A DNA stretch of 64,000 nt from Bradyrhizobium cenepequi (GTDB lineage: Bacteria; Pseudomonadota; Alphaproteobacteria; Rhizobiales; Xanthobacteraceae). Each line of letters begins with the position of its first letter. Within the stretch, counting starts at the first letter, position 1. Location of the stretch: NCBI RefSeq assembly GCF_020329485.1, contig NZ_JAGKJI010000013.1, positions 62,001-126,000 on the forward strand, read 5' to 3'. Below the pieces are notes generated by a model. It had not been told where the DNA came from and made no database searches. It saw nothing but the letters and a program-made list of their open reading frames with translations. Positions 56,036 through 61,187 of the stretch are shown here, one piece after another. Position numbers and translations under genes: made by a program.

Positions 56036-56845
56036 ATGCCGGGTGTGTGGCGCCACCGTCCGATCATCATAGGTTCGATCGTCATATTGTCGCTCGTGTC
56101 GCTCGACGCGGGATATGCCGCATGGGCGCGCGGAATTGTCAGGGCCGCGCCGAAGATCGCGCCTTCGAAATGCGAGCGGTCCAAGTTCAAAGTCATCCTC
56201 GATGTCGGCCATACCGCCGAAGCACCCGGCGCGAGGAGCGCTCGCAACATCCCGGAATTCGACTTCAATCTCCGTCTCGCCAAACGCATCGAGGACAGAT
56301 TAAAGTCGGAAGGCTTTGCGGAAACCAGCCTCCTGGTGACGGAAGGCCCGGCCCGGCCGAGCCTGTTCAAGCGCGCCGCTGTCATCAACGATTCAAAGGC
56401 CGATCTGGTGCTGTCGATCCACCATGACTCGGTGCCTGATTCCTTTCTCGAAGAATGGGAGTTCGAGGGAGCGCAGAGCCATTTCAGCGACCAGTTCAGC
56501 GGTTATTCGCTGTTCGTTTCTCACGACAATCCGAAATTCCGGACCAGCCTGAGGTTCGCCCGGTTGCTCGGCAAGCAAATGAAGGCCCAGGGGCTGCGAT
56601 ATGCTCGCCAATATGCGCAGCCGTTGATGGGGCGGTATCGGCGAAAACTGCTGGACAAGAGGGTCGGGGTCTATCGATACGACCAGCTCATCGTGCTCGC
56701 ACAGACCCGCGTGCCCGCCGTCCTGTTCGAGGCCGGCTCGATCATCAACCGGGACGAAGAGATGGCAATGGAGTCCACGGAGCGTCAGGACATGACCGGC
56801 GCCGCCGTGGTCGGTGCGGTGAAGGAATTCTGCGCCTCGCGGTAG
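56036..56845 (+). CDS. N-acetylmuramoyl-L-alanine amidase (Amidase_3)
   Basis: 269 residues. A hydrophobic N-terminal segment (PIIIGSIVILSLVSLDAGYA) targets it to the periplasm. The zinc amidase core has KVILDVGHTAE (His ligand), IPEFDFNLRLAKRI (Glu ligand), LVLSIHHDSV (His ligand) and VLFEAGSIINRDEE (catalytic Glu). It cleaves the sugar-peptide bond of peptidoglycan. The EnvC-like activator in this window could regulate such enzymes, though pairing is inference. It converges on the antiporter gene 7 bases away. Confidence 0.92.
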   Translation: MPGVWRHRPIIIGSIVILSLVSLDAGYAAWARGIVRAAPKIAPSKCERSKFKVILDVGHTAEAPGARSARNIPEFDFNLRLAKRIEDRLKSEGFAETSLLVTEGPARPSLFKRAAVINDSKADLVLSIHHDSVPDSFLEEWEFEGAQSHFSDQFSGYSLFVSHDNPKFRTSLRFARLLGKQMKAQGLRYARQYAQPLMGRYRRKLLDKRVGVYRYDQLIVLAQTRVPAVLFEAGSIINRDEEMAMESTERQDMTGAAVVGAVKEFCASR

Positions 56846-59173: not shown

Positions 59174-61000
59174 ATGAAATCGATTGGATTTCCGGGATTG
59201 CATCGCCTCATTCCGGCGCTGTTCCTGCTTCTGATGTGCCAGCCGGCCTTCGCCGAGAAGCGCGTGGCGCTGGTGCTCAGCAACTCCGCCTATCAGAACG
59301 CCGCGCCGCTCCCCAACCCCATCAACGACGGCGCGCTGATCGCGGCGAAGCTGAAGGCCGCCGGTTTCGACGTGGTGGATTTCCGCCGCGATCTTCCAGC
59401 GGTTGAGACCCGCCGCGTGCTGCGCGACTTTGCCGACCGTAGCCGCGATGCCGAGATCGCCGTGGTCTATTACGCCGGCCACGGCATCGAGGTCGATGGC
59501 GCCAACTACCTCATTCCGGTCGACGCGAAGCTCGAACGCGACACCGACGTTTATGATGAGGCATTTTCGCTCGACCGTGTCCTGATCGCGATCGAGCCGG
59601 CCAAGAAACTGCGGCTCGTCATCCTCGATGCCTGCCGCGACAATCCCTTCGCCAAGACCATGAAGCGTACCGTGGCCTCGCGCGCGATCGGGCAGGGCCT
59701 CGCCAAGGTCGAGCCGACCAGCCCGAACGTGCTGATTGCGTACTCAGCCAAGGCCGGCTCCACCGCCGCCGACGGCGACGGCAAGAACAGCCCCTTCACA
59801 TCAGCGCTCTCGAAGCATCTGACAACGCCCGGGCTCGATGTGCGGCGCGCGTTCGGCTACGTCCGCGACGACGTGCTGAAGCTGACCAATAACCGCCAGG
59901 AGCCGTTCGTTTATGGCTCGCTCGGCGGCGAGGACGTGCCGCTGGTGCCGGCGCCGGTCAAGGCGGCGGCGCCTGCCGCGCCTGCACCTAATCTGCAAGC
60001 CGACATGCGCCGCGATTACGAACTGGCGCTGCAGGTCGGCAACAAGAGCGCGCTCAACGCCTTCCTCGCGCAACATTCCGACGGCTTCTATGCGAGCCTG
60101 GCCAAGCTCCAGCTCGAGAAGATCGCTGCCGAAGAGGCCCGCGTCGCCGCCACGGAGAAGGCGCGGGCGGCGGAGCAGGAGCGTGCCCGTCTCGCCGCCG
60201 AAGGGGCCCGGCGGGCCGAGCAGGCGAAGGCGGCCGCCGACGCCAGGGCCGCCGAACAGGCGCGTCTCGCCGCCGAAAAAGCCAAGCAGGTCGCGCAGGA
60301 TCAGGCGGCGGTCGCCGAGCAGAAGCGGCTCGCGGCCGAAAAGGCATTGGCCGACAAGATCGCCGCCGACAAGGCTGCCGCGGATCAGGCGGCAGCCGCG
60401 CCTTCCGACAAGGACAAACCGGTGAATGTAGCCGCGCTCAGCACCGGCTCGCCGCAAGTCGACGTCACCAAGTCGGTGCAGGCCGAACTGCGCCGCGTCG
60501 GCTGCCTCACCAGCGCGGCCGATGGCGAGTGGAACGCCGCCTCGCAACGGTCTCTGACGCTGTTCAACCGCTATGCCGGAACCAGGCTCGACACCAAGGT
60601 GGCCAATGTCGACACGCTCGATGCCATCAAGCTGAAATCCTCGCGCGTCTGCCCGCTCGTCTGCGAGCATGGCTACAAGGCTGATGGCGACCGCTGCGCC
60701 CGAATCGTCTGCGGCCAAGGCTCATTCCTGAATGACGAGAATGAGTGCGAGAAGCGGCGCGAGAAGAAGCCGGTTGCCAAGCGCGATTCCGACGATCGTC
60801 CAGCGCGGCGCGAGCGCGAACGGCCCGCTGTCCGCATTCCCCGACCGATAGCCTCTTCAGGCGGCGGGGGCGGAGGCCAGATCGTGTGTGACCGCGGCGG
60901 CTGCCGCCCGGTCGCCCGCGGCTGCCGCCTCGAATTCCGCACCACCGCGCAAGGCGGCCCTTACGAGGGCGGCGGCGGCAACGTCCAGGTTTGCAACTAG
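59174..61000 (+). CDS. Secreted caspase-like (C14 family) protein with Cys-rich tail
   Basis: 608 residues. A signal peptide ends near QPAFAEKR (cleavage about residue 27). The p20 caspase fold (about 29-250) has VALVLSNSAYQNAAPLPNP, the catalytic His103 in YYAGHGIEV and Cys154 in LDACRDNPF. An Ala/Glu/Arg-rich coiled coil spans about 313-410. Residues 430-478 (SVQAELRRVGC, DGEWNAASQRSLTLFNRYAG) look like a peptidoglycan-binding domain. The last 110 residues are rich in Cys, Gly and Arg. The start was set at 59174 for GAAGG upstream. Function is unknown; acting in the periplasm on proteins is inference. Confidence 0.88.
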   Translation: MKSIGFPGLHRLIPALFLLLMCQPAFAEKRVALVLSNSAYQNAAPLPNPINDGALIAAKLKAAGFDVVDFRRDLPAVETRRVLRDFADRSRDAEIAVVYYAGHGIEVDGANYLIPVDAKLERDTDVYDEAFSLDRVLIAIEPAKKLRLVILDACRDNPFAKTMKRTVASRAIGQGLAKVEPTSPNVLIAYSAKAGSTAADGDGKNSPFTSALSKHLTTPGLDVRRAFGYVRDDVLKLTNNRQEPFVYGSLGGEDVPLVPAPVKAAAPAAPAPNLQADMRRDYELALQVGNKSALNAFLAQHSDGFYASLAKLQLEKIAAEEARVAATEKARAAEQERARLAAEGARRAEQAKAAADARAAEQARLAAEKAKQVAQDQAAVAEQKRLAAEKALADKIAADKAAADQAAAAPSDKDKPVNVAALSTGSPQVDVTKSVQAELRRVGCLTSAADGEWNAASQRSLTLFNRYAGTRLDTKVANVDTLDAIKLKSSRVCPLVCEHGYKADGDRCARIVCGQGSFLNDENECEKRREKKPVAKRDSDDRPARRERERPAVRIPRPIASSGGGGGGQIVCDRGGCRPVARGCRLEFRTTAQGGPYEGGGGNVQVCN

Positions 61001-61028
61001 ATTGCGAGAAATAACGATGGCGGTGCGC

Positions 61029-61148
61029 TCCCTCTCCCGCCTGCCTGCGGGAGAGGGCCGGGGTGAGGGTGCCTCCACGATGGGACTCTCCGTGGGGAGA
61101 GAGCCCCCCGGCGCTTCGCGCCGACCTCCCCCGCAAGCGGGAGAGGTG
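61029..61148. repeat. CTC-rich palindromic repeat (second copy)
   Basis: Hairpins CCCTCTCCCGC/GCGGGAGAGGG, CTCTCCGTGGGGAGAG and CTCCCCCGCAAGCGGGAG in a row. Same style as 27911 and 61931. It lies between the convergent caspase-like and DUF1345 genes. Confidence 0.75.
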
Positions 61149-61187
61149 AACGAATTCGCGGATCGGCCGCTCTCAAAACTGTAAACC

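Follow-up and report, generated by a model that had tools for sequence, protein, structure and literature searches.

The gene at positions 59,174 to 61,000 of the window (the whole 64,000-nucleotide stretch analysed here) encodes a protein that is probably an exported and, by prediction, active relative of the caspases, in which a caspase domain is joined through a long predicted helix to a Cys-rich tail resembling a peptidoglycan-binding domain. The gene originally called here is real and its ends are exact, with the ATG beginning at 59174 and the stop codon at 60998-61000, giving a product of 608 residues. The source genome, that of a soil bacterium, comprises 8.47 Mb in 188 contigs. All of the closest named protein relatives are from Bradyrhizobium, one of them from B. 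elkanii, and the best four, which are 87-90% identical to the window protein, cluster with it in the tree. The features discussed below are collected in Table 1.

Table 1. Coordinates of the caspase gene and of its predicted features in the window
Feature	Window positions	Strand	Basis or remark
Whole coding sequence	59174..61000	+	608 aa plus stop; homologues in 80 named loci
Signal peptide, residues 1-27	59174..59254	+	cleavage expected after A-F-A; read from sequence
Caspase (peptidase C14) domain, residues 29-249	59258..59920	+	PF00656, Foldseek
Catalytic His103 codon	59480..59482	+	90/90 rows covering the position
Catalytic Cys154 codon	59633..59635	+	90/90 rows covering the position
Short helical hairpin, residues 274-300	59993..60073	+	AlphaFold helices 274-288, 291-300
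Ala/Glu/Lys/Arg-rich single long helix, residues 305-399	60086..60370	+	AlphaFold model
Three-helix PG_binding_1-like domain, residues 427-488	60452..60637	+	AlphaFold models, VIA-align
First Cys module, residues 493-525	60650..60748	+	C493, C497, C508, C513, C525
Arg/Lys-rich linker, residues 526-569	60749..60880	+	invariant Arg537, KPVAxR-like motif
Second Cys module, residues 570-607	60881..60994	+	C572, C577, C584, C607

The caspase-like identity proposed for the protein is borne out by a Pfam match to PF00656 over residues 29-248 (E 1.5e-35; 123.4 bits against a cut-off of 21.4), and the C14 fold is backed by the fold search. This is the only C14 match, covering profile positions 1-225 of 233 with no second domain such as the separate p10 of type I metacaspases, in a search that used no p10-only model. 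The best solved-structure relative is the MALT1 paracaspase, both by profile (E 5.4e-15) and by fold (Foldseek, E 1.7e-10). A match to Peptidase_S29 (E 0.036), under its cut-off, was taken as chance. For conservation we aligned 91 homologous reading frames from 80 named loci with the window protein, L004 and L008, which are the window's own gene, having been dropped from the 91-row set. The His/Cys dyad is intact in the window protein, as had been read from it, and His103 and Cys154 are likewise kept in all 90 of the homologous rows that cover them, so that close homologues retain the dyad. Cys154 is the sole Cys of the mature protein ahead of the tail. Two acidic residues of the putative S1 pocket, Asp52 and Asp152, are invariant in the rows covering them (89/89 and 90/90, respectively), and Asp52 aligns with the Asp of the MALT1 'APLVDV' in the profile alignment. 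Passages of PMC6426788 give two pocket Asp residues of TbMC2, Asp95 and Asp211, as the basis for its acceptance of basic residues. Because the window protein has two invariant pocket Asp and this precedent is published, it is predicted, by analogy, to cleave after Arg or Lys. The two AlphaFold models are middling (mean pLDDT 72.0 and 72.8; pTM 0.43 and 0.47), and pLDDT falls under 50 in residues 107-129, which adjoin the catalytic His. Selection on the gene is purifying: in comparisons with four near relatives, the caspase domain has a dN/dS of 0.08-0.12 and no part of the gene exceeds 0.37.

A signal peptide had been claimed for the protein, and one is present by eye (MKSIGFPGLHRLIPALFLLLMCQPAFA, followed by EKR). 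The A-F-A site has the same two residues, Ala25 and Ala27, in all of 60 aligned sequences, and the predicted export features are kept in homologues. A lipoprotein was rejected: just 50 of the 91 rows have Cys at position 22, so that Cys22 is unlikely to be a lipobox Cys, and the LLMC of the window protein does not match the usual lipobox. The Cys residues are distributed as would be expected if the protein were exported and disulfide-bonded, with only the catalytic Cys free. Between residues 28 and 424 all 89 of the rows counted, window included, have a single Cys, and the number in their tails is even; 3 of the 92 rows did not cover both ends and were left out. These rows are related and have only two tail states, 8 and 10 Cys, possibly produced by few changes on the tree, so they do not amount to 89 independent events. 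Taken from the sequence features, export to the periplasm appears the likely fate of the protein.

Beyond the caspase domain and the hairpin, the region originally described as a coiled coil is modelled as one long helix, in which 36 of the 95 residues are Ala. Its helical character stands, and a coiled coil is supported only weakly: the hydrophobic fraction at the a and d positions of a heptad over residues 305-399 is 0.63, compared with 0.64 in 2000 shuffles (p 0.70), and there is neither a signal at period 3.5 (p 0.68) nor a hendecad signal. When Ala is counted as hydrophobic, a weak repeat of about 7 residues appears in the window helix (p 0.014) and exceeds the 95th percentile of shuffles in 33 of 92 rows; when Ala is excluded the repeat is gone (p 0.24). 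The TolA profile matches the helix below threshold (E 0.026; 13.8 bits against 59.45). A TolA-like rod fits the helix better than a classical coiled coil, although it may form an Ala-based coil.

The next segment was originally described as peptidoglycan-binding-like, a description upheld by its predicted fold and by Pfam matches in relatives, though not by a Pfam match on the window protein itself. Three helices are predicted (residues 427-441, 455-468 and 479-486), and VIA-align places them on SltB3 with a Z of 7.9 over 61 residues and on the SleB N-domain with a Z of 7.7, values that are middling by the tool's own note and that, for a small helical domain, may reflect a common arrangement. 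Wall-active enzymes make up 13 of the 19 rows of fold matches and the protease CtpB 4. Foldseek on the tail model gave weak E-values (best 0.08), and the structure matches of that model barely cover the Cys modules. No peptidoglycan-binding Pfam family matched the window protein at E<=1, and the PF01471 cut-off was not reached. PG_binding_1 was matched at E<=1 by 17 of 60 close relatives (best 0.0011) and by 9 of 11 other proteins carrying the tail (best 0.00017). Two of the nine carriers scanned with Pfam, L170 (25.7 bits) and L202 (24.5 bits), pass its cut-off of 23 bits. Antistasin was matched at E<=1 by more of the close relatives than was PG_binding_1 (34 of 60 as against 17 of 60); its match to the window protein (E 0.097), below the cut-off, was put down to a chance resemblance in the Cys motif. 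The predicted fold suggests wall binding by the tail, which a fold alone does not prove.

The Cys-rich tail that had been noticed in the window protein holds 10 Cys, and it is conserved in homologues, the number across the 89 rows being 8 or 10. At eight positions (Cys 444, 493, 497, 508, 513, 525, 584 and 607) 90 or 91 of the 91 rows have Cys, and the rest have gaps. The remaining two, C572 and C577, behave as a pair, with both present in 68 of the 89 rows and neither in 21. This pattern would fit disulfides in the tail. The linker between the two Cys modules is mostly modelled with low confidence (pLDDT under 50 for residues 532-567). Arg537 is nevertheless present in all 90 covering rows while the linker around it varies, and as an invariant Arg in a varying linker it is a candidate site of self-cleavage or of contact.

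The tail is not peculiar to the window family. The last 186 residues of the protein match at least 63 of 297 genomes of the order, at least nine of these in the genus, while a profile with a stricter cut-off matched at least 1 of 288 genomes of the class outside the order; since no more than about 11 candidates were scored in any genome, both rates are lower bounds and can be compared only roughly. In these samples the Cys-rich tail thus seems nearly confined to Hyphomicrobiales. Within the source genome, the tail has three weak matches besides itself (E 0.005-0.2), and it was counted as single-copy because the frame holding the best of these does not look like a gene by eye. We retained 71 of 117 rows as carriers (70 of the 93 from outside the genus plus one from inside), excluding the weakest 22 and another that contains two stops. 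A local profile finds a C14 domain in 41 of the 71. Nine of the other 30 were scanned with Pfam, which identified a divergent C14 domain (L159), Ser/Thr kinases (L156 and L160), a nucleotide cyclase (L107), an FGE-sulfatase fragment (L170) and a TPR protein (L194); L150, L186 and L202 had no informative N-terminal domain above cut-off. The two kinases and the cyclase have a hydrophobic segment, visible by eye, between enzyme and tail, an argument for a tail outside the cytoplasm. In twelve of the 71 carriers the counted stretch has only two Cys. In the eight of these inspected, one Cys follows the first helix and the other the third, helix positions being assigned by analogy with the window model, an arrangement that would fit one basic disulfide.

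The family is widespread in the genus. Every one of the 146 genomes of the genus sample, which includes the source genome, is matched at E<=1e-20, and 137 are matched at E<1e-200; three of the remaining nine have no match stronger than 2.6e-83. This search does not separate syntenic from other copies, and the weak matches may be to other C14 genes. A profile of the protein family gave matches at E<=1e-10 in 80 of 119 genomes drawn from the wider family, many of the matches listed spanning the caspase part only. Pfam identifies the six neighbours scanned as an amidase_3, a CPA1-type antiporter, a lumazine-binding-like protein, a DUF1345 protein, a polyprenyl synthetase (GGPPS) and an MtgA-like transglycosylase. 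By these matches the neighbourhood is an ordinary one of housekeeping type, and none of the six indicates a function for the caspase gene. The two genes flanking it on either side are on the opposite strand. Among the 80 loci, some of which are truncated by contig ends, the neighbours kept are the lumazine-binding-like gene (62), GGPPS (57), MtgA (57), DUF1345 (55) and CPA1 (48). Fifteen loci have none of the tested neighbours. In a tree of 90 rows, from which those of 520 residues or fewer had been dropped, 24 copies and 66 rows fall on opposite sides of one branch (support 87); 14 of the 15 neighbour-less loci account for the 24 copies, and the fifteenth, L024, clusters with the other 66.

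Several local observations accompany these counts. Seven loci of other Bradyrhizobium (L057, L064, L080, L085, L087, L089 and L091) carry two or three whole-protein homologues in tandem, in places without the window's neighbours. In three genomes (L111-L113) the few neighbours of the copies that were scanned have no common theme. A divergent caspase-domain protein (C14, E 3.8e-14) is found at L113:3834-5630 in a genome of the genus, near a family member and another caspase-like frame. In the window, an amidase_3 gene with a hydrophobic N-terminus (56036-56845) lies close upstream of the caspase gene. Such a gene adjoins in only 5 of the 80 related loci (flanks of about 4 kb) and seems particular to near relatives. 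A repeat-like, G+C-rich stretch occupies window positions 61018-61150, between the caspase gene and the next gene. The lack of a defence context noted at the outset was confirmed, in that PADLOC gave 0 matches at E<=0.01 for the caspase protein and four neighbours; with none among the six Pfam-scanned neighbours either, a defence system was rejected.

The combination of an exported caspase with a wall-binding-like region had been called unusual, a claim that does not survive comparison with other C14 proteins. The source genome has seven C14 genes, and a heuristic finds an export-signal-like N-terminus in the products of all seven. The same is true of 26 of the 29 best matches in other genomes of the order (29 of the 41 such genomes that had a match), and in the three that the heuristic missed a hydrophobic stretch is visible by eye. 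Judged by their N-termini, exported caspases look like the rule in this order. Three of the seven in the source genome (L003, L005 and L006) have an export-signal-like N-terminus and have lost the dyad (Tyr/Ser, Tyr/Ala and Phe/Ser), forms that passages of PMC6426788 report for Rhizobiales. A peptidoglycan-binding domain was counted in 11 of 671 C14 proteins in 2012, and passages of that survey (PMC3501461) consider a location outside the cell; because of this count, the kind of protein is already known. PMC4550343 notes only that certain ExoR-like proteins contain C14 and PG_binding_1 domains. A Cys-rich tail of this kind, shared with kinases and a cyclase, was not found in the titles, abstract openings and passages of the literature searched, and its titles and abstract openings include no experimental study recognisable as being of this caspase family. 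A table for an nnrR mutant in PMC6710368 gives -4.3 for the B. diazoefficiens gene bll3611, annotated there as a 'caspase family protein'; no tie between bll3611 and the window gene could be made.

We consider it fairly likely that the protein is a periplasmic orthocaspase directed at Arg and Lys whose tail anchors it to the wall. The signal peptide would deliver the orthocaspase to the periplasm, where it would act as a cysteine endopeptidase on bonds after Arg or Lys. The hairpin and the long helix (some 95 residues, which would span about 14 nm if helical throughout) would join the catalytic domain to the C-terminal module, whose PG_binding_1-like domain and disulfide-bonded Cys part would hold the enzyme to the wall or to wall-linked material and so set the protease at a fixed reach. 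On a change in the state of the wall or envelope, it might then cut proteins of the envelope or else its own Arg-rich linker, with Arg537 as one conceivable site, although self-cleavage is put forward here only as an inference. The location and the near-universal presence of the protein prompt the guess that it has a part in envelope upkeep. Of the two roles suggested originally, envelope surveillance is possible, whereas no evidence was found for host contact, given a family present in 137 of 146 genomes and a housekeeping neighbourhood.

The tail might instead be a receptor or protein-interaction module, with a PG_binding_1-like fold that does not bind peptidoglycan, which recruits the protease to an envelope partner. 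Kinases, a cyclase and a TPR protein carry related tails, as would be expected of a sensor, the window protein has no peptidoglycan-binding Pfam match, and the protease CtpB is among the fold matches; however, wall-active enzymes predominate among those matches, and two of the nine other carriers score above the PG_binding_1 cut-off. We regard this reading as unlikely, if worth keeping in mind. A bolder proposal goes beyond the window family: Hyphomicrobiales would share one disulfide-locked sensor of the state of the wall, mounted either on exported caspases, which would respond by proteolysis outside the cell, or on transmembrane kinases and cyclases, which would respond inside it; the caspases would then form the outer arm of a network of wall surveillance with a common ligand. 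We think this rather improbable.

An executioner that acts at the cell surface in programmed lysis or fratricide would suit the caspase fold and the wall-related genes close by (amidase_3 and MtgA), and passages of PMC3501461 propose surface or fratricidal action for bacterial metacaspases. Such a role is nonetheless doubtful in the extreme for a protein nearly universal in the genus sample and under purifying selection; its six neighbours include no toxin, immunity or gasdermin-like gene by Pfam, PADLOC was empty, and the amidase_3 gene is rarely adjacent. The chance that the protein is a secreted factor acting on the legume host is slighter still. Its export features and the richness of rhizobial genomes in C14 genes (passages of PMC3501461) would be in keeping with that, but matches occur in nearly all sampled genomes of the genus, many loci keep a conserved chromosomal place, and the tail is of wall type, in a module spread over many families of the order. 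Equally slight is the prospect of a scaffold whose catalysis is dispensable: the three dyadless proteins among the seven of this genome indicate that exported caspase-like proteins without a dyad do exist here, yet the window family keeps its dyad in every row covering it, and Asp52 and Asp152 as well.

The reading of the protein as a wall-tethered periplasmic protease bears on how bacterial caspase homologues are viewed, since the parts of the literature drawn on here frame them mostly by cell death. Many caspases of the order appear to be extracytoplasmic, and the window family, in a genus that has workable laboratory strains, offers a tractable, near-universal case for the function of an exported caspase. 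If the shared tail were a wall sensor, extracytoplasmic proteolysis would be linked to kinase and cyclic-nucleotide signalling.

Among known systems, the nearest solved caspase fold by both profile and structure is that of the MALT1 paracaspase, a human signalling protease of the cell interior, which has no wall module. The PG_binding_1 domains of SltB3 and SleB share the three-helix fold of residues 427-488; unlike them, the window domain falls below Pfam detection, contains a Cys that is conserved (C444) and has a Cys-rich part after it. With the bacterial orthocaspases (MEROPS C14, PF00656; HC variants of Alphaproteobacteria), as described in passages of Klemencic et al. 2019 (PMC6426788), the window protein shares the C14 domain, the dyad and the acidic pocket. 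It differs from the orthocaspases of those passages in its PG_binding_1-like domain, Cys-rich tail, long helix and export features. There is also a likeness in domain content to the C14 proteins with a putative peptidoglycan-binding domain of Asplund-Samuelsson et al. 2012 (PMC3501461), which share a protease and a wall-type domain and are possibly extracellular. The Cys-rich modules and the long helix are undescribed in the passages of that paper drawn on here, and the window family may itself be among its 11.
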